Shown here: piece by piece, positions 14,689 through 58,476 of the stretch
Numbering within the stretch: the stretch's first letter is position 1
How the letters are laid out: the number at the start of each line of letters is the position of its first letter
Source: an uncultured Eubacterium sp.
GTDB lineage: Bacteria > Bacillota > Clostridia > Lachnospirales > Lachnospiraceae
DNA length: 60,480 nucleotides
Assembly (NCBI GenBank): GCA_947088865.1
Contig: CAMUHY010000020.1
Coordinates: 1 to 60,480 of the forward strand
Direction: 5' to 3'
Program-made: the position numbers and the translations under genes
The notes under the pieces: model-generated
What the model was told of the DNA's origin: nothing
Database searches by the model: none
The model's input: the letters and a program-made list of their open reading frames with translations, nothing else

Positions 14689-15498
14689 TTATACGACCTG
14701 TACCCCATATAGTTCACAAAGACCTGCCAAATCGCGCGCTACACCGTTGCCGATGGCATTAAATTTCCATTTTCCTTTATAAAGATATAATTCGCCAATC
14801 ATCATAGAAGTAACGTTAGAATAGTATTCTGTCATTTTAAAGCTGACAAGTTCAGCATTGTTTGAGCTGGTTAGTATTCTAATGTAGGCGTCTTTAATCA
14901 TGCTGAAATTGAGTCTTTTTTCTAAAGCTTCATTGATGGTAAGAACAAATACAATTTTGGTTACAGATGGATTAAGTTTTGTCATATCAATAGATATGAC
15001 TTCTCGGTCTTGCATAGAACGGTCACTGAAAATTGTACTGTTGTCGGGGCTTTGAGTTTGCCCATAAAATACAAACCAGTCATCGCCTAGTACTTTGCCA
15101 GAAGCGTTAAGCATAAAAGCTGAAACATCAACATCACAATTATTATTTAATACATTCCAACCAATACATGCCTTTAATTTGACAGAGCCATTAATTGGTA
15201 GAGGAACCTTTTGTCCTTTTTGAATTTCATAAATTAATGGTGGAATTGGTTTGTTTAAACCTTTTGGATTGGATGGAACATGTTGTGTTGTATGTTGTGC
15301 TGCTGTGTTCGTTGGTGGAATTGCTATGTTTGGCAAAGGCGGTTTAACATTGTTTTGATTATGGACTTTAGTGCGAGAGCTTTTATTTATATTTGTAATA
15401 TTATTGGATGAATTGGCTCTCTGCACATTGATTTGATTTATTGATGCAACAGTATGCTTGTCAAAAGGAACTGTTGATTTCATAGGAATATCAATCAT
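14689..15498 (-). CDS. TerD-domain protein with a low-complexity N-terminal arm
   Basis: The C-terminal 190 residues form a TerD domain, the calcium-binding fold of tellurite/stress proteins: LKACIGWNV...CDVDVSAFML, then a GDDWFVFYGQTQSPDNSTI acidic loop, and KIVFVLTINEA. Residues about 1-80 are rich in Asn, Pro, Thr and Gln and look like a flexible arm. The frame can start at a GTG (15507), but the ATG at 15498 sits where the glmS and chemoreceptor starts sit after the shared leader motif GCAGAAATGAG, so I chose it (269 residues). It is divergent from asd and first in an operon with AIM24. Confidence 0.85.
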   Translation of the reverse strand: MIDIPMKSTVPFDKHTVASINQINVQRANSSNNITNINKSSRTKVHNQNNVKPPLPNIAIPPTNTAAQHTTQHVPSNPKGLNKPIPPLIYEIQKGQKVPLPINGSVKLKACIGWNVLNNNCDVDVSAFMLNASGKVLGDDWFVFYGQTQSPDNSTIFSDRSMQDREVISIDMTKLNPSVTKIVFVLTINEALEKRLNFSMIKDAYIRILTSSNNAELVSFKMTEYYSNVTSMMIGELYLYKGKWKFNAIGNGVARDLAGLCELYGVQVV

Positions 15499-15590
15499 TT
15501 TTTTCACTCATTTCTGCGCTTATTTTTGCGCAAAGAACAAAAGTTCTTGCCAATTTGTGTTAGGCGATGTGCAGGCAAAAATTTTGAGAG
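15499..15590 (-). promoter_or_regulatory. Divergent copy of the hairpin/pseudoknot leader, upstream of terD
   Basis: Read on the minus strand, this segment ends GCGCAAAAATAAGCGCAGAA then ATGAG before the start, close to the ends of the glmS and chemoreceptor leaders. TTTTTGCC and GGCAAGAA can pair (one G-U), and TGCGC/GCGCA forms a hairpin just before the ribosome site. The long-range second pairing seen in the other copies is not clear here. Confidence 0.5.
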
Positions 15591-17908: not shown

Positions 17909-19921
17909 ATGAAAAAGTCCGTATTTATAGCTGAAAAACCAAGTGTTGCACAAGAGTTTGCTAAAGCGCTGCATGTTCATTTTACAAAAAAGGACGGCTA
18001 TCTTGAAGCAGAGAACACCATTGTAACATGGTGTGTGGGACATCTTGTCACAATGAGCTATCCAGAAAAATATGATGAAAAATATAAAAGATGGAGTTTT
18101 GATATGCTTCCGTTTTTGCCACAGGATTTTTTATATGAAGTCATACCATCTGTAAAAAAACAGTTTGATACAGTAAAAAAAATCTTGACGGACAAAGAGG
18201 TTGAAACGATATATGTATGTACGGACTCTGGTCGTGAAGGAGAGTATATATACAGACTTGTAAAACAGATGGCAGGCGTTGAGGGAAAAGTTGAAAAACG
18301 TGTTTGGATTGATTCACAGACAGAGGAAGAAATTACAAAAGGTATTGAAAATGCAAAATTGTTGTCGGAGTATGATAATTTAAGTGAAGCGGCATATTTA
18401 AGGGCAAAAGAGGACTATTTGATGGGTATTAATTTTTCTAGAGCATTGACTTTAAAATATGGAAGAAATATATCCAATTATTTAAAGACGGATAGAACGG
18501 TTATTTCTGTGGGAAGAGTGATGACATGTGTACTGGGAATGGTTGTTAAAAGAGAGCGGGAAATAAGAGCGTTTGTAAAAACACCATTTTTTAAAGTAAT
18601 AACCAATGTTCGCCTTACATTAGAAGATGATGAAGAAGAAAAAGAATCCTCTCAATTTGAGGCTGAATGGAAAGTTTCGCCTAAAAGCAGATATTATAAG
18701 ACGCCATTTTTGTATAAAGATAATGGTTTTAAAGAAAAGCAAAAAGCACAGGAATTGGTTGATTTGATGTCACAGACTTTGCCAGAAAAAGGGATTATTG
18801 AGTCGATAGAACGAAAAAAAGAAACAAAAAATCCGCCTTTATTATACAACCTTGCAGAGCTGCAAAATGATTGTTCCAAGTTGTTTAAAATTAGCCCTGA
18901 TGAGACATTGACAATTGTTCAAGAATTATACGAAAAAAAGTTAGTGACATATCCAAGAACGGATGCGAGAGTTGTGTCAAGTGCAGTGTGTAAAGAAATT
19001 TATAAAAATATCAGCGGTTTGAAAAATTATGCACCAACAAATGCCTTTGTTACAGAGATTTTAGAACAAAAAAAGTATACATCGCTTGAAAAGACTAGAT
19101 ATTGTGATGACAAGAAGATAACCGACCATTATGCTATTATTCCAACAGGTCAGGGGATTAATGCTTTAAATAGTGTCTCTTCAACTTCAGCAAAGGTGTA
19201 TGAGATTATTGTAAGGCGATTTCTTAGCATATTTTATCCGGCGGCTATATATAATAAAGTTGCTGTTACGATTGTTTGTAAAGATGAAATGTTTGCTGCT
19301 TCTTTTAAAGTGCTTGTCGATGAAGGATATCTTAAAGTTGCACAAAATTCATTTGCAAAACAGCAAGAAGATAATAAAATAAATACAGTAGTGAATGTTT
19401 CTTTGATGGAGCAGTTAAAAAAGTGCAAAAAAAATGATGTGGTTCATCTGATGGACTTTTACATTAAAGAAGGGGAGACCTCACCGCCAAAAAGATATAA
19501 TTCAGGTTCAATTATATTGGCTATGGAAAATGCAGGACAGCTTATAGAAGATGAGGAACTGCGCGCGCAGATAAAAGGAAGTGGCATAGGAACAAGTGCT
19601 ACAAGGGCAGATATCTTAAAAAAGCTCAATCGAATTGAATATATGTGTACAAATAAAAAAACACAGATAATAACACCAACCAAGCTGGGAGAAATTGTGT
19701 ATGACGTTGTTGCAAAATCAATTCATCATTTGTTGAATCCAGAATTAACGGCAAGTTGGGAAAAGGGATTGACCTATGTGGCACAAGGTACGATTACATC
19801 CAAAGAATACCTTGATAAGCTGGAAGGTTTTGTTGAACGAAGAACCATTCAAGTGATGAATTTAAATAATCAAACAGAGCTGATTAGTTTGTTTGATGAA
19901 TCTTCTAAAAATTATAAATAA
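17909..19921 (+). CDS. topB: DNA topoisomerase III
   Basis: A type IA topoisomerase of 670 residues that passes single strands to decatenate DNA. Visible parts are the Toprim start FIAEKPSVAQEFAKAL (6-21), the acidic metal motif CTDSGREGEYIYRL near 104-117 (usually DxDxxxE; here DSGREGE), and the active-site tyrosine in VTYPRTDARVV (about Y348). GSGIGTSATRADILKKL near 560 is a conserved type IA segment. The frame is open for 34 more codons upstream, but homology starts at MKKSVF. The AGGAG before this ATG is unusually close (1 base), so the effective ribosome site may be the AAAGGA further up. No zinc fingers are present, as usual for TopB. glmS follows after 109 bases. Confidence 0.95.
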   Translation: MKKSVFIAEKPSVAQEFAKALHVHFTKKDGYLEAENTIVTWCVGHLVTMSYPEKYDEKYKRWSFDMLPFLPQDFLYEVIPSVKKQFDTVKKILTDKEVETIYVCTDSGREGEYIYRLVKQMAGVEGKVEKRVWIDSQTEEEITKGIENAKLLSEYDNLSEAAYLRAKEDYLMGINFSRALTLKYGRNISNYLKTDRTVISVGRVMTCVLGMVVKREREIRAFVKTPFFKVITNVRLTLEDDEEEKESSQFEAEWKVSPKSRYYKTPFLYKDNGFKEKQKAQELVDLMSQTLPEKGIIESIERKKETKNPPLLYNLAELQNDCSKLFKISPDETLTIVQELYEKKLVTYPRTDARVVSSAVCKEIYKNISGLKNYAPTNAFVTEILEQKKYTSLEKTRYCDDKKITDHYAIIPTGQGINALNSVSSTSAKVYEIIVRRFLSIFYPAAIYNKVAVTIVCKDEMFAASFKVLVDEGYLKVAQNSFAKQQEDNKINTVVNVSLMEQLKKCKKNDVVHLMDFYIKEGETSPPKRYNSGSIILAMENAGQLIEDEELRAQIKGSGIGTSATRADILKKLNRIEYMCTNKKTQIITPTKLGEIVYDVVAKSIHHLLNPELTASWEKGLTYVAQGTITSKEYLDKLEGFVERRTIQVMNLNNQTELISLFDESSKNYK

Positions 19922-19931
19922 CAGGAGGATT

Positions 19932-20030
19932 AGTGTGAAAAATAAATTTTTCACACTGCAATTTGTGTCTGCGCGTTGCTTGACACAAAGTTGCTTATGC
20001 ACAAAAAGCAGCGCAGAAATGAGGATTTTT
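19932..20030 (+). ncRNA. Structured 5' leader of glmS: hairpin plus H-type pseudoknot ending at the ribosome site
   Basis: A perfect 11-bp hairpin (AGTGTGAAAAA/TTTTTCACACT, 19932-19957) is followed by four arms in the order A-B-A'-B'. A is TTTGTGTC (19962-19969), B is TGCGC-GT-TGCTT (19970-19981), A' is GACACAAA (19982-19989) and B' is AAGCAGCGCA (20006-20015). A pairs with A', and B, in its loop, pairs with B' with a 2-base bulge; that is an H-type pseudoknot. The ribosome site ATGAGGA and the glmS ATG follow directly. The 58-kb chemoreceptor has the same layout with a compensatory change in B/B' (TGTGC/GCACA). Also present is a GTG (19935) with an AGGAGG site, in frame with glmS. Not a glmS ribozyme. 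Existence of the repeat is certain; the RNA function is inferred. Confidence 0.65.
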
Positions 20031-21851
20031 ATGTGTGGAATAGTCGGATATATTGGTGACAGAGATTGTACAAATGTATTAATTGATGCATTAGAAAAAC
20101 TGGAATATAGAGGATATGATTCAGCAGGTATTGCTGTTATGGAAAATGGTGTTATCAATGTTGCCAAATGTAAAGGAAGACTTGCAAACCTAGTCGAGAA
20201 GATGGAAAATGAGGGGCGTCCTTCTGGCAATATAGGAATAGGACATACAAGATGGGCTACACATGGAGAACCTTCAGACATTAATTCACATCCACATGGG
20301 AATAGACGAGTGACCGTCGTACACAATGGAATTATTGAAAATTATAGACAGATAAAGGAATTTCTTATAAATGAAGGGTATCATTTTGTCAGTGAGACCG
20401 ATACAGAAACCGTTGCTAAATTGTTGGATTACCATTATTCTGGAAATCCAGTTGACACGATTATTAAAGTGTTGTCTGAAATAAAAGGTTCTTATGCGCT
20501 GGGAGTTATTTTTAGAGATTTTCCAAATACCATTTATGCAGTGCGAAAAGATAGTCCTTTGATTGTTGGAAAAGGAGAACATGAAAATTTTATTGCTTCC
20601 GATGTTCCAGCTATTATGAAATATACAAGAGATTACTATTTGCTTGAACAAAATGAAATTGCGGTTATTAAAAAAGAAAATGTAACTTTTTACAATACCC
20701 ATAAAGAAAAAATTTCTAAAGAAATCCACGTTGCTGATTGGGATGTGGATGCGGCTGAAAAAGGTGGTTATGAGCATTTTATGCTCAAAGAAATTCACGA
20801 GCAGCCTACTGCTATAAAAACTACCATTATGCCTAGAATCCAAAATTCTATGCCTGATTTTTCAGCAGAAGGTTTTGATAGCAAACGATTAAGTTCATAC
20901 AAAAAAATATTTATTGTTGCCTGTGGAACAGCAATGCACGCTGGATTGGTTGGAAAGTATGTGATTGAAAAATTGGCTAGAGTTCCTGTAATTGTTGATA
21001 TTGCGTCGGAGTTTCGATATAGGGAGCCGCTTATTGGCGAGGGCGACTTGATGATTGTTATATCGCAGTCAGGTGAAACAGCAGACACAAAAGCAGCATT
21101 GGAGCTGGCTAAGAAAAATAATGCAGACACGATGGCAATTGTCAATGTAAAAGGTTCATCCATTGCAAGAGATGCTGATATGGTGATATATACACATGCA
21201 GGTCCAGAGATATCCGTTGCTTCAACAAAGGCTTATATGGTGCAAATTTCGGTTATGTATTTAATTGCATTTGAGCTTGCATTAGGAAATGATACAATAA
21301 CAAAAGAACAATGTGCAGCATATACAAAAGAATTGGAGGAAATTCCAGATATTATAGAACAATCCATTGCTTTAGAAAATAAATGTCAATTTGTCGCTTC
21401 TAAGCTGCTGAATGCAGAAAGTTTATTATATATAGGAAGAGGGCTGGATTATGCTTTAAGTATGGAGGGGTCTTTAAAGTTAAAGGAGATATCCTATATT
21501 CACTCAGAATCCTATGCGGCAGGCGAGTTAAAACATGGTACGATTTCATTGATTACAGAGGGAATGCCTGTGATTGCTGTTGTCACACAAGATGATTTGG
21601 AAGAAAAGACAATCAGTAACATTAAGGAAGTGAAATCCAGAGGGGCAATGGTTATTTTAGTGTGTGGAAAAGACGTTCAAGTCGAAGATGAAGTTGCCGA
21701 TTATGTTATTCGGCTGCCAAAAGCCGATAAGCTGCTTATGCCAATGGTGGCAGCGGTTCCTTTACAGCTTATCGCTTACTATGCGGCAGTGCTTAAAGGA
21801 AATGATGTTGATAAGCCAAGAAATTTGGCGAAGTCGGTTACGGTGGAATGA
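20031..21851 (+). CDS. glmS: Glutamine-fructose-6-phosphate aminotransferase (isomerizing)
   Basis: Makes glucosamine-6-phosphate from fructose-6-phosphate and glutamine, the first step toward UDP-GlcNAc and cell wall. The 606-residue product has the Ntn glutaminase domain with the nucleophilic cysteine right after Met (MCGIVGYIG), RGYDSAGIAV and GHTRWATHGEPSDINSHPH, then two SIS domains with ACGTAMHAG, VISQSGETADT and SVASTKAYMVQ. It ends in the usual DKPRNLAKSVTVE. The start must be the ATG at 20031 because the cysteine has to become N-terminal. A longer in-frame frame from the GTG at 19935 would bury it. Most Firmicutes control glmS with a self-cleaving ribozyme; none is present here, and a different leader sits upstream. 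Confidence 0.98.
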   Translation: MCGIVGYIGDRDCTNVLIDALEKLEYRGYDSAGIAVMENGVINVAKCKGRLANLVEKMENEGRPSGNIGIGHTRWATHGEPSDINSHPHGNRRVTVVHNGIIENYRQIKEFLINEGYHFVSETDTETVAKLLDYHYSGNPVDTIIKVLSEIKGSYALGVIFRDFPNTIYAVRKDSPLIVGKGEHENFIASDVPAIMKYTRDYYLLEQNEIAVIKKENVTFYNTHKEKISKEIHVADWDVDAAEKGGYEHFMLKEIHEQPTAIKTTIMPRIQNSMPDFSAEGFDSKRLSSYKKIFIVACGTAMHAGLVGKYVIEKLARVPVIVDIASEFRYREPLIGEGDLMIVISQSGETADTKAALELAKKNNADTMAIVNVKGSSIARDADMVIYTHAGPEISVASTKAYMVQISVMYLIAFELALGNDTITKEQCAAYTKELEEIPDIIEQSIALENKCQFVASKLLNAESLLYIGRGLDYALSMEGSLKLKEISYIHSESYAAGELKHGTISLITEGMPVIAVVTQDDLEEKTISNIKEVKSRGAMVILVCGKDVQVEDEVADYVIRLPKADKLLMPMVAAVPLQLIAYYAAVLKGNDVDKPRNLAKSVTVE

Positions 21852-26725: not shown

Positions 26726-26756
26726 GTTTTTTAAGTTAGCAGAAATGAGGATTATT

Positions 26757-27245
26757 ATGAAGTTAATTATTACAGATATTAAAGATTTTAATATTTCTAT
26801 AAATGGAAAATATAAAATTATAAAACCGCAAAAAAAGATTAATCATTGTATTGGTTGTTTTGGCTGTTGGATTAAAACACCAGGACAATGTGTAATTAGT
26901 GATGGTTTTGAAAAAACGGGTATTGAAATGAGTCGATGCAGTGAGCTTATTTTCATTAGCCAATGTTTTTATGGCAGTGTGAGTCCATTTGTAAAAATGG
27001 TTCAGGATAGAGCGATTTCTTATATTCATCCTGATTTTGTAATGCGAAAAGGTGAAATGCATCATAAACGCCGATATAAAAATGTGATTAAACTCTCTGC
27101 GCATTTTTATGGGGAAAAAATTACAGATATTGAAAAAAATACCGCAAAAAATATAATACAAGCCAATGCTGACAATTATGATGCCATTGTAAAAAAGGTT
27201 TGTTTTTATCCGTCTATAAAAGAATTGGAGGAGATTACATTATGA
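26757..27245 (+). CDS. Flavodoxin-like / iron-sulfur flavoprotein-type protein
   Basis: A 162-residue protein of the NADPH-dependent FMN reductase/flavodoxin-like type. The segment NHCIGCFGCWIKTPGQCVIS has the C-x2-C-x2-C-x7-C spacing of iron-sulfur flavoproteins, and SELIFISQCFYGSVSPFVKM fits the FMN-binding loop. The N-terminus is shorter than usual, so the first phosphate-binding loop is not obvious. I prefer the ATG at 26757 after GCAGAAATGAGGATT over the one inside that motif (26745). It overlaps the next gene by 4 bases. Electron transfer is expected; the substrate is unknown. Confidence 0.75.
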   Translation: MKLIITDIKDFNISINGKYKIIKPQKKINHCIGCFGCWIKTPGQCVISDGFEKTGIEMSRCSELIFISQCFYGSVSPFVKMVQDRAISYIHPDFVMRKGEMHHKRRYKNVIKLSAHFYGEKITDIEKNTAKNIIQANADNYDAIVKKVCFYPSIKELEEITL

Positions 27246-29912: not shown

Positions 29913-30034
29913 CGATTTTTTGACTTTTCTTATATAAAATTCCTTTGGTAGAAAAAATTGATTAATTTGTATTTGTGTGATTAGGTTTTATTTAACACAA
30001 AAGAATTGAGGATGGATGTCTTTTGATTTTCAAT

Positions 30035-30070
30035 TTTTTCACAAAAAGCAATGCAGAATGGGGGATTTTT
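30035..30070 (+). promoter_or_regulatory. Short copy of the leader tail before the lipoprotein gene
   Basis: TTCACAAAAAGCAATGCAGA followed by ATGGGGGATTTTTATG closely resembles the last 35 bases of the glmS leader (GCACAAAAAGCAGCGCAGAA, then ATGAGGATTTTTATG). The upstream arms needed for the pseudoknot are not seen. Confidence 0.5.
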
Positions 30071-31468
30071 ATGAGAAAAGTTTTTATTTTATGTTTAATA
30101 TTCTTTTTTATATTTGCATTTTATGCTTGTGGTAGCAATATAAAAACAGATAGTAAAAATACAAATGACGAGCAAAAATTAAAATCCAATTTACAGGAAA
30201 ATAATATAAAAGATGACAGTCAAAAAATTGGAAATCTTCAATTTATTTGCAATTCGGAAGGCGATAGTGCATGTAATACAGAAAATGGTTATTATTATTT
30301 AACACATGATTTAACAAAGCTTCAAGATGGCAATTATGGAAGTCATTTGATGTATATGGATTTTGCTACTTGTCGTGAAATTTATCTTTGCAGTACAGCA
30401 GGCTGTAAACATAATTCACTAGATTGTCCCGCCGTATTTTCATATGATGATTTTCCGACATTTACTACAAAGCTTTTTGTATGTGACAATTATTTATATA
30501 TTTTAAGCCGTGAGTCAAGCGATGAGGGGATGGCACAGAGCATGATGGGAGGCGATGATGGAGGTATAACGCCAGAAAGTAGACCTGCTGTGCTTTATCA
30601 AGCCAACCTTGACGGTACAGAGCGAAAAAAGGTTTATACTTTTGATGAAGAATTGGTGCTTGAAGAATTTATATTAAAAGATGAAAATGGCATTTATGTA
30701 CTTACAAAAAAACTTTCTATGGATAAAGTAGATAATATAACGTATACAACGGCTTCTGAAAAAAAGGTCGTATTTTTAGATTTAAAATCGTTTCATGCGC
30801 AGGAAGTTTGTCCTATAAACGTTGATAATCTTATTTCATGGAAGGTGATAGGCTGTTATCAAGATTGTCTGATTTTGAGCGGGACTGATTATGGACGAGA
30901 GCTTTCATTAGAGGAAAAATGGGATGATGACAGTTATCGTTTACTGTATGAAAATTCTTTTGATGTCTATGCACTTTTGGATTTAAAAAGCGGTGATTTA
31001 AAAGAATTTTACAGAGAATCGAATAAAAATCAACATTCGGTTTATATGGTTGAAGATATCATGTATCTATCCTTTTTAGAAAATCCAATAATTGAAGGAA
31101 TTAATATCAAGAGCGGAGAAAGAAAAACCATTTGCACAATTGAACAAAATTTGATTATGAATGTTATTGATGATATGTTGTGCTGCCGTGACTGGAATCT
31201 TTCTAGTGACCATACCTATTATTTTGTTAATATGAAAACAGGTGAAATTATGCACAGTATGCTTGTCAATCAATATAATGGCTGGGATTTGGAATTTCGT
31301 GCCGAAACTTCTTCAGATATGCTGGTTGTATATGATTATGATGCAACAAAAAACATTGATGGTTCATATGAGATTCACCAATACAAATATGCTTTAATCA
31401 CTAAAGAAGATTTGTTTATGGGAAGGCAAAATTATCGCAAAATCAATATGATTGGTCATGGAGAATAA
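30071..31468 (+). CDS. Putative lipoprotein of unknown function
   Basis: A 465-residue secreted lipoprotein. The N-terminus MRKVFILCLIFFFIFAFYAC is a signal peptide ending in a lipobox (FYAC) with the modified cysteine at about residue 20, followed by a polar linker (about 25-60). The body has repeated short beta-type blocks (YYYLTHDL, LYILSRES, GIYVLTKK, YMVEDIMYLSF) compatible with a beta-propeller, and a CSTAGCKHNSLDCPA cysteine cluster near 115-130 that is typical of related Lachnospiraceae lipoproteins. I do not know its function. It lies between the kinase and the ABC transporter and may be a sensor accessory or the substrate-facing part of the system. Confidence 0.8.
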   Translation: MRKVFILCLIFFFIFAFYACGSNIKTDSKNTNDEQKLKSNLQENNIKDDSQKIGNLQFICNSEGDSACNTENGYYYLTHDLTKLQDGNYGSHLMYMDFATCREIYLCSTAGCKHNSLDCPAVFSYDDFPTFTTKLFVCDNYLYILSRESSDEGMAQSMMGGDDGGITPESRPAVLYQANLDGTERKKVYTFDEELVLEEFILKDENGIYVLTKKLSMDKVDNITYTTASEKKVVFLDLKSFHAQEVCPINVDNLISWKVIGCYQDCLILSGTDYGRELSLEEKWDDDSYRLLYENSFDVYALLDLKSGDLKEFYRESNKNQHSVYMVEDIMYLSFLENPIIEGINIKSGERKTICTIEQNLIMNVIDDMLCCRDWNLSSDHTYYFVNMKTGEIMHSMLVNQYNGWDLEFRAETSSDMLVVYDYDATKNIDGSYEIHQYKYALITKEDLFMGRQNYRKINMIGHGE

Positions 31469-58243: not shown

Positions 58244-58357
58244 TATTGGAATGGTGAAAGAAATAATTAAAATTTAATAAACTGTATTTACGAAAATTTT
58301 ATAAAGTGGTACAATTTTATTTGAGAGGGTGTAAAATTTTATAAAATAAATTCATAA

Positions 58358-58476
58358 GGGGGATTTATGTGAAAAATAAATGATTTCACAAGTTTAATAA
58401 AAAGTAATAAACACTTTGTGCCTGTGCGCTGCTTGACACAAAGTTACCAAAAAGCAGCACAGAAATGAGGATTTTT
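58358..58476 (+). ncRNA. Structured 5' leader of the chemoreceptor gene (second copy of the glmS-type leader)
   Basis: It follows the glmS leader element by element: a GGGGGATTTAT then GTGAAAAATAAA segment with a TGTGAAA/TTTCACA hairpin, A ACTTTGTG (58413-58420), B TGTGC-GC-TGCTT (58423-58434), A' CACAAAGT (58437-58444), B' AAGCAGCACA (58452-58461), then GAAATGAGGATTTTT before the ATG. The B/B' pairing is kept while bases differ from the glmS copy (TGCGC/GCGCA there, TGTGC/GCACA here). The GTG frame ends after four codons, so a long leader peptide is not the conserved feature. Confidence 0.65.

Follow-up and report, generated by a model that had tools for sequence, protein, structure and literature searches.

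A candidate mobile element that inserts into ribosome-binding sites and forms folded leaders in an uncultured Eubacterium sp. and related Lachnospiraceae

The leaders of glmS and of a chemoreceptor gene in a stretch of 60,480 nucleotides from an uncultured Eubacterium sp. (assembly GCA_947088865.1, contig CAMUHY010000020.1; the whole stretch is called the window in the following) are members of a large family of folded elements that ends at the start codons of many genes. We favor, with some reserve, the explanation that this family is a MITE-like element which inserts into ribosome-binding sites, duplicates the Shine-Dalgarno sequence (SD) and from then on serves the downstream gene as a transferable folded leader with an effect on translation initiation. 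From 5' to 3' the element is composed of a purine-rich SD1, a hairpin P0 that is present in some copies and opens with GTG or TTG, a hairpin P1 (arms A and A'), a linker that measures between 7 and about 85 nt and occasionally holds its own hairpin, the strand B', the motif AGAAAT, SD2 and the start codon. A second helix, S2, is formed by strand B in the P1 loop and B'.

Leader copies in the window and in its genome

The preliminary description of the window had reported two leaders with arms in the order A-B-A'-B' at 19932-20030 and 58358-58476, and this arm order was found at both places. The 3' block that both have in common, AAAAGCAGCRCAGAAATGAGGATTT, was located at two places in the window when up to three mismatches were permitted, and 100 dinucleotide shuffles contained no instance of it. 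A covariance model, R1, was built from 20 copies of the genome to which the window belongs (its own genome; alignment A1). With this model four convincing copies were found in the window (Table 1), among which the leaders of glmS and the chemoreceptor gene score best; a weak fifth match at 26737-26760 (20.3 bits, E 0.029) is not counted. The two leaders presented as a pair are therefore both real, but they are only the best two of four copies, of which the others had been missed. The gene names in Table 1 rest on Pfam matches, and all other gene names follow from by-eye reading of N-termini. The start codon of the chemoreceptor gene was placed by eye at ATG 58477 and not at the in-frame ATG 58465 of the open reading frame list, which lies inside the SD.

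Table 1. Leader copies in the window, their parts and the genes that follow them (positions within the window).
Feature	Position	Strand	Remarks
SD1 GGAGGATT, glmS leader	19924..19931	+	left flank of the element; GAGGATT recurs at 20021-20027
Hairpin P0 (AGTGTGAAAAAT..TTTTTCACACT), glmS leader	19932..19957	+	contains GTG, spacing 6 from SD1
Hairpin P1, glmS leader	19962..19989	+	TTTGTGTC 19962-19969, loop 19970-19981, GACACAAA 19982-19989
S2 5' strand GCGTTGCTT, glmS leader	19973..19981	+	within P1 loop
S2 3' strand AAGCAGCGC, glmS leader	20006..20014	+	immediately 5' of SD region
AGAAATGAGGATT, glmS leader	20015..20027	+	element 3' end and SD2
glmS, 606 aa	20031..21851	+	SIS and glutamine amidotransferase domains (Pfam)
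SD1-like AAGGGGGA, chemoreceptor copy	58356..58363	+	
Hairpin P0 GTGAAAAATAAATGATTTCAC, chemoreceptor copy	58369..58389	+	
Hairpin P1, chemoreceptor copy	58413..58444	+	arms 58413-58422 and 58435-58444, one C.A mismatch
S2 3' strand AAGCAGCACA, chemoreceptor copy	58452..58461	+	partner TGCGCTGCTT 58425-58434; contiguous helix with one C.A mismatch
AGAAATGAGGA with SD2, chemoreceptor copy	58461..58471	+	
Methyl-accepting chemotaxis protein, 607 aa	58477..60300	+	Cache and MCPsignal domains (Pfam)
Third copy	15495..15584	-	R1 50.8 bits; precedes TerD-domain gene 14689-15507 (-) (Pfam TerD)
Fourth copy	29971..30074	+	R1 37.2 bits; precedes open reading frame starting at 30071, no Pfam match

In the own genome R1 resulted in at least 149 matches at E<=10 and at least 126 at E<0.01, with 150 of 5629 first-look candidates scored. 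A search of the 3.29-Mb assembly for AAGCAGNNCANAAATGAGGA gave 34 exact occurrences, spread over both strands, and the reversed pattern gave none. An open reading frame of at least 45 aa begins within 14 nt of the match end in 119 of the 124 own matches that were read (the other two of the 126 at E<0.01 had too little flank). Among own copies with P0, the 19 best are conserved from SD1 to the start codon, and their outer flanks hold little information; in about 20 weaker own matches P1 is unclear and B' is kept. Many dispersed, near-identical copies within one genome, as they are expected of a MITE, are present: 22 of 253 pairs of 76-nt own copies are at least 95% identical.

A leader scoring 90 bits (G000:C18:4354-4429) has no frame of 45 aa at its start and is followed by a very short frame and then by another SD and ATG. 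Some leaders contain or adjoin a second hairpin repeat of the own genome with the approximate sequence AGCAGCGTAGCGGATTGCGAATATCCG (G000:C18:64901-65035, C2:118941-119003, C1:433349-433442; L008, L029), and in three loci (L145, L184, L190) an extra small hairpin is seemingly inserted in the P1 loop beside the kept strand B.

Distribution across genomes

The exact 20-mer AAGCAGCGCAGAAATGAGGA was found in at least 111 stretches of the genome collection, which among the matches listed belong mostly to Lachnospiraceae, Roseburia, Parablautia, Lachnoclostridium, Clostridium and similar. A covariance-model search of Lachnospiraceae genomes, as it had been proposed in the preliminary description, recovered the family: R1 matches in 37 of 298 genomes of the family at E<=0.01 and a further model, R2, in 60 of 298 at E<=0.001. 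In the order, R2 matches in 17 of 245 genomes at E<=1e-4, 16 of which are of the same family. In the family and order scans 14 to 20 candidates were scored per genome, so that copy numbers from these scans are lower bounds. In the genus, R1 at E<=1 gives 147 matches in the own genome, 100 in G018, 52 in G006, 45 in G004, 43 in G020, 27 in G014 and 0 to 13 in the remaining 16 genomes. The spread of the element within Lachnospiraceae is patchy, and the prevailing S2 sequence differs among the three genomes examined.

The one genome from another family of the order, G043, holds two strong matches (C4:108900-108974 and C1:64632-64703, E about 1e-12 and 3e-11), which perhaps reflect transfer or a deeper origin. 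In G334 four leader matches lie on one strand within about 7 kb (G334:C16:49140-56241), so that several genes of a single cluster may each be preceded by a leader. With a cassette of G006 as DNA query, 24 matches each were found in G006 and G020, many of them 90-99% identical; a subtype of these two genomes has TGAGCG/CGCTCA as B/B' together with an additional linker hairpin (L416-L418, L421, L422, L426, L432, L441, L442, L447, L448). Finally, L089 of G018 carries a tandem pair of elements with one SD common to both copies.

Covariation and fold of the leader

Both helices covary. For P1, 45 cross-genus copies showed 56 double-changed cells against 15.0, the observed count being reached by none of 500 shuffles, in rows that were preselected for P1: the rows of alignment A2 were picked by P1 score from 111 loci, 16 of which had no P1 by that search. 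In an unselected control with 108 of the 111 loci, chosen by the 3' 20-mer only, the stem and the loop-to-B' pairing were jointly present in 60 of 108 loci compared to 122 of 2160 dinucleotide shuffles. The covariation of S2 is the fairer test because S2 is not a helix in either model, with R1 and R2 both including the consensus letters of B' and being biased toward consensus copies. A total of 220 unique loop-B' combinations paired with a mean score of 15.76, compared to 12.70 (sd 0.20) and a maximum of 13.27 in 1000 permutations in which B' was exchanged. Set by set, the observed value was reached by 0 of 2000 permutations for the family loci, for G006 and for the own genome and by 89 of 2000 for G018. 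The copies entered as sets of 124, 88, 61 and 36, from which 84, 61, 52 and 23 unique combinations were parsed; some loci belong to more than one set, and the pooling of species inflates the pooled contrast. No weight is given to an earlier S2 test (0/2000), in which intact and decayed copies were mixed. Two further results weigh against the S2 covariation, namely a stricter subset of the own genome, in which 955 of 5000 (cells) and 369 of 5000 (weighted) permutations reached the observed value, and the non-consensus B' strands, which pair no better with their own loops (13.8) than the consensus B' (14.6).

The register of S2 was examined with 52 unique own combinations having a 12-nt loop. 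The contiguous register, GCGTTGCTT/AAGCAGCGC, was reached by 10 of 3000 permutations and showed its signal between loop position 5 and B' position 8 (Fisher p 0.008, own genome), whereas the bulged B/B' register was reached by 718 of 3000, with p 0.41 at the pair singled out in the preliminary description. The compensatory TGCGC/TGTGC substitution claimed there requires the bulged register and is weak evidence because this register does no better than permuted strands; the helix itself is real. Variants of S2 in other species include GCGCGGC/GCCGCGC, GCGCAGC/GCTGCGC, GCGATGC/GCATCGC, GCACTGC/GCAGTGC and GCGCAC/GTGCGC. On the sense strand G.U exceeds A.C (29:4, 46:15 and 71:46), which points to pairing at the level of the RNA, the excess being partly built in by the alignments, in the making of which G.U was counted as a pair.

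The H-type pseudoknot proposed for the site next to the ribosome stands as far as two covarying helices in the order A-B-A'-B' are found there; on their simultaneous formation covariation is neutral, fitting a knot as well as alternative hairpins. Most likely, judged from the sequences, P1 and S2 form together as an H-type pseudoknot. A bistable translational switch with P1 or S2 as alternative hairpins and S2 reaching into the SD region is doubtful but a serious candidate; it concerns the fold only and is compatible with the explanation as an inserted element. Upon nested folding P1 and S2 compete, and the minimum-energy folds prefer S2 to P1, with the extra pairs UCUGCGC/GCGCAGA in the glmS leader. 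The nested fold exceeds that of shuffles in strength for the glmS leader (z -2.76, 1/200) but not for the chemoreceptor leader (z -1.14, 26/200). The two-helix covariation is as compatible with a switch as with a knot. However, changed inner pairs of P1 tend to remain paired within P1 (e.g., L010, L017, L018), and loops of 12-13 nt together with linkers of at least 7 nt permit both helices simultaneously.

Occupied and empty sites

At the glmS junction the motif is present in the last 40 nt of none of the 17 sibling loci having the same topoisomerase gene upstream. In the sibling locus L466 a single AGGAGGATTTTTT precedes the ATG of glmS, whereas the window shows AGGAGGATT, the element and TGAGGATTTTT. 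The glmS locus L453 of G006 holds a stretch with GCGCTGCTT, which may be a relic copy of the element. In this comparison L471 was unreadable, and in L470 and L472 the glmS-like gene is a more distant one that lacks the topoisomerase gene in front of it. Because the sibling GlmS proteins are only 75-83% identical to that of the window, these sites do not amount to exact pairs of before and after. Similarly, a nucleoside-phosphorylase-like gene starts about 115 nt after the upstream stop codon in G006 and G020, where the site is occupied, and follows a short gap with one SD in G005 and G012. Occupied and empty sites as they are sought for MITEs were found for these two genes, in both cases between species only; an insertion polymorphism at the level of strains was not seen.

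The ribosome-binding sequences on both sides of the element resemble each other. The likeness of the 8-nt left and right flanks within a locus was reached upon exchange between loci in 0 of 5000 trials for 83 cassettes, in 13 of 5000 for the 28 own cassettes and in 89 of 5000 for the other 55; when species are pooled, species-wide habits of ribosome-binding sites may contribute, and the cassette list includes a few doubtful hairpins. Full identity of the two flanks across 8 nt is confined to 6 of the 83 cassettes (e.g., GAGGTTTA and GGGGATTA), and a certain likeness is to be expected of any two SDs. The siblings that have no element at the same junction, the matching flanks and the carrier genes that are hardly shared all support the mobile regulatory cassette, which had been mentioned as an alternative in the preliminary description.

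According to the explanation that we favor, an element of about 75-120 nt would insert in one orientation into ribosome-binding sites, with GAGGATT as the typical target. Each insertion, presumably a single enzymatic event per site, would duplicate the Shine-Dalgarno sequence, leaving SD1 upstream and SD2 before the start codon. The transcript would then fold into P0 (in part of the copies), P1 and S2, in which the P1 loop pairs with the 9-10 nt adjoining SD2. In this folded state SD2 would be free, and the knot would lie 5' of the SD:anti-SD helix, where the 30S subunit docks. There it may tune initiation for any downstream gene and could be tolerated or even helpful before housekeeping genes. 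Binding of the 30S subunit is the most plausible role for the fold because S2 ends at the start of the SD region. AGAAAnGAGG is, as we assume, complementary to the 3' end of the 16S rRNA; a pattern for this 3' end had no match in this draft assembly. Masking of the SD by a pyrimidine-rich anti-SD was considered, and no such sequence was seen by eye in the consensus.

The element might instead be a selfish repeat only, the fold of which serves its own copying as single-stranded DNA or RNA intermediate without a selected effect on translation; its placement at start codons would then result from a preference for an SD-like DNA target and the purging of harmful insertions. The near-identical copies within a genome, the patchy presence, the scarcely shared carrier genes and the repeats resembling ribosome-binding sites that flank the element all agree with such a repeat. 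However, compensated pairing persists in divergent copies and species, suggesting that the fold matters after insertion. G.U pairs are moreover tolerated on the mRNA-sense strand, again with the excess partly built in by the alignments. We therefore regard a merely selfish repeat as unlikely.

Carrier genes

The genes that carry the leader, read by eye, are of many kinds and pathways. A signal specific to glmS and the chemoreceptor gene is not supported because more than 100 matches precede varied genes in this genome. Carrier proteins having a counterpart of at least 40% identity among the 119 own carriers amount to 2 of 53 in G018 and 0 of 33 in G006, and at a looser E<1e-5 some relative among the own carriers is found for 9 of 53 and 1 of 33, respectively. 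The comparison used proteins of at least 60 aa from 115 (G018) and 49 (G006) matches, with own proteins cut at about 300 aa. The sharing of carriers with the two siblings is about equal to an assumed gene background of 5-6%, and an ancestral regulon common to the siblings was rejected, the sharing not being above this assumed background. A gene read by eye as rplT, encoding ribosomal protein L20, carries the leader in two species (G000:C1:376478-376552 and L066 of G004), and therefore some sites may be old.

A global trans-acting factor, i.e., a protein, a small RNA or a common metabolite, might bind the leader, with the copies constituting a regulon selected in each species. More than 100 carriers per genome would fit such a regulon, and the prevailing S2, different in each of three genomes, is what co-evolution with a factor would give. 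Against it stand the carriers shared with the siblings, 2 of 53 and 0 of 33 in incomplete samples and not above the assumed background, and the few or absent matches in some genomes of the genus, which render it quite improbable.

Very improbable is an upstream reading frame that starts from SD1 and the GTG or TTG at the base of P0 and the translation of which would unfold the leader by attenuation or coupling. SD1 together with GTG or TTG does resemble a start site: of 106 NTGA hairpins, 61 have an SD-like sequence 4-15 nt upstream, compared to 4-18 of 102-104 at offsets of at least 12 nt and to a control count of 15 of 106 at offset 6, and the codon, when the SD is present, is GTG in 42 and TTG in 19 cases and never ATG or CTG. 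The frame relative to the main start varies, however (31/22/21 in 74 hairpins, some of which occur by chance), a strict search pattern for P0 fits 24 of the 124 own copies, and SD1 can also be explained as duplicated target. Because of this varying frame, a conserved peptide translated from the start codon of P0 was rejected. The block was likewise considered as coding sequence; its frame agrees with that of glmS in the window, but 43 of the 74 hairpin starts are in another frame than their genes.

Comparison with known families and systems

With Rfam 15 (4227 families, gathering thresholds) only a tRNA was found in the whole window, and at E<=10 all scores for the glmS leader (19880-20080) were far below the thresholds. 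On 20 related loci Rfam 15 gave TwoAYGGAY and two tRNAs, none of them on a leader. The TwoAYGGAY RNA (RF01731, 117 bits) is located at L099:5748-5913, in the same stretch as a related leader. A named riboswitch class was ruled out in the absence of an Rfam 15 match on the leaders; this comparison had been suggested in the preliminary description and its outcome anticipated there. A metabolite riboswitch with a pathway signal common to glmS and chemotaxis is hardly conceivable, for the order and place of the helices resemble those of pseudoknot translational riboswitches, to which we take SAM-II to belong, but there is no Rfam match, the carriers come from many pathways instead of one and are hardly shared between siblings, and pairing occupies most of the P1 loop.

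Small interspersed repeats and pseudoknot leaders are both known kinds. Among open-licence PMC papers, searched by title and start of the abstract, we found no publication on the motif and no repeat that targets ribosome-binding sites and has a covarying loop-to-SD helix. In the parts of the following sources considered here, the pneumococcal BOX, RUP and SPRITE repeats are described as over-represented between convergent genes (PMC3049150), whereas nearly every copy read of the present element ends at a start codon, and the element has doubled SD flanks and a covarying loop-to-SD helix. Rickettsia palindromic elements are inserted within genes, the product of which is retained, and lie in frame inside reading frames, whereas the present element lies in the ribosome-binding site (PMC10969869); the words ribosome and Shine-Dalgarno are absent from the main text of this MITE review.

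With regard to pseudoknot leaders, again for the portions of the sources considered, the tisB leader of E. coli has a pseudoknot and standby function that promotes 30S binding (PMC7708055), and the pseudoknots of timP and rpsO are discussed with an effect for timP that is not merely a freeing of the SD (PMC11295053). These are single bench-tested leaders, whereas the present family is dispersed before unrelated genes and known from sequence alone. The preQ1 riboswitch resembles the present element as a compact pseudoknot at the SD (PMC9410914). In preQ1-type riboswitches the SD overlaps the knot, whereas in the present element S2 ends just 5' of the SD and the carriers share no pathway.

Implications for Lachnospiraceae

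We put forward more tentatively that the family may represent a class of mobile elements that targets the bacterial ribosome-binding site itself, each time duplicating the SD and installing a pseudoknot leader, and that spreads translational control in this way. If such a class exists, lineages of Lachnospiraceae would have provided more than 100 genes in each genome with a new leader, among them housekeeping genes. A mobile element would have turned into a ready-made translation leader that invades a near-universal spot and survives by returning a working SD. Moreover, the occupied and empty sites of one and the same gene would be natural replicates for the effect of a pseudoknot beside the SD, and a common gut family would gain a layer of folded leaders, unnamed in Rfam, in front of more than 100 genes per genome.
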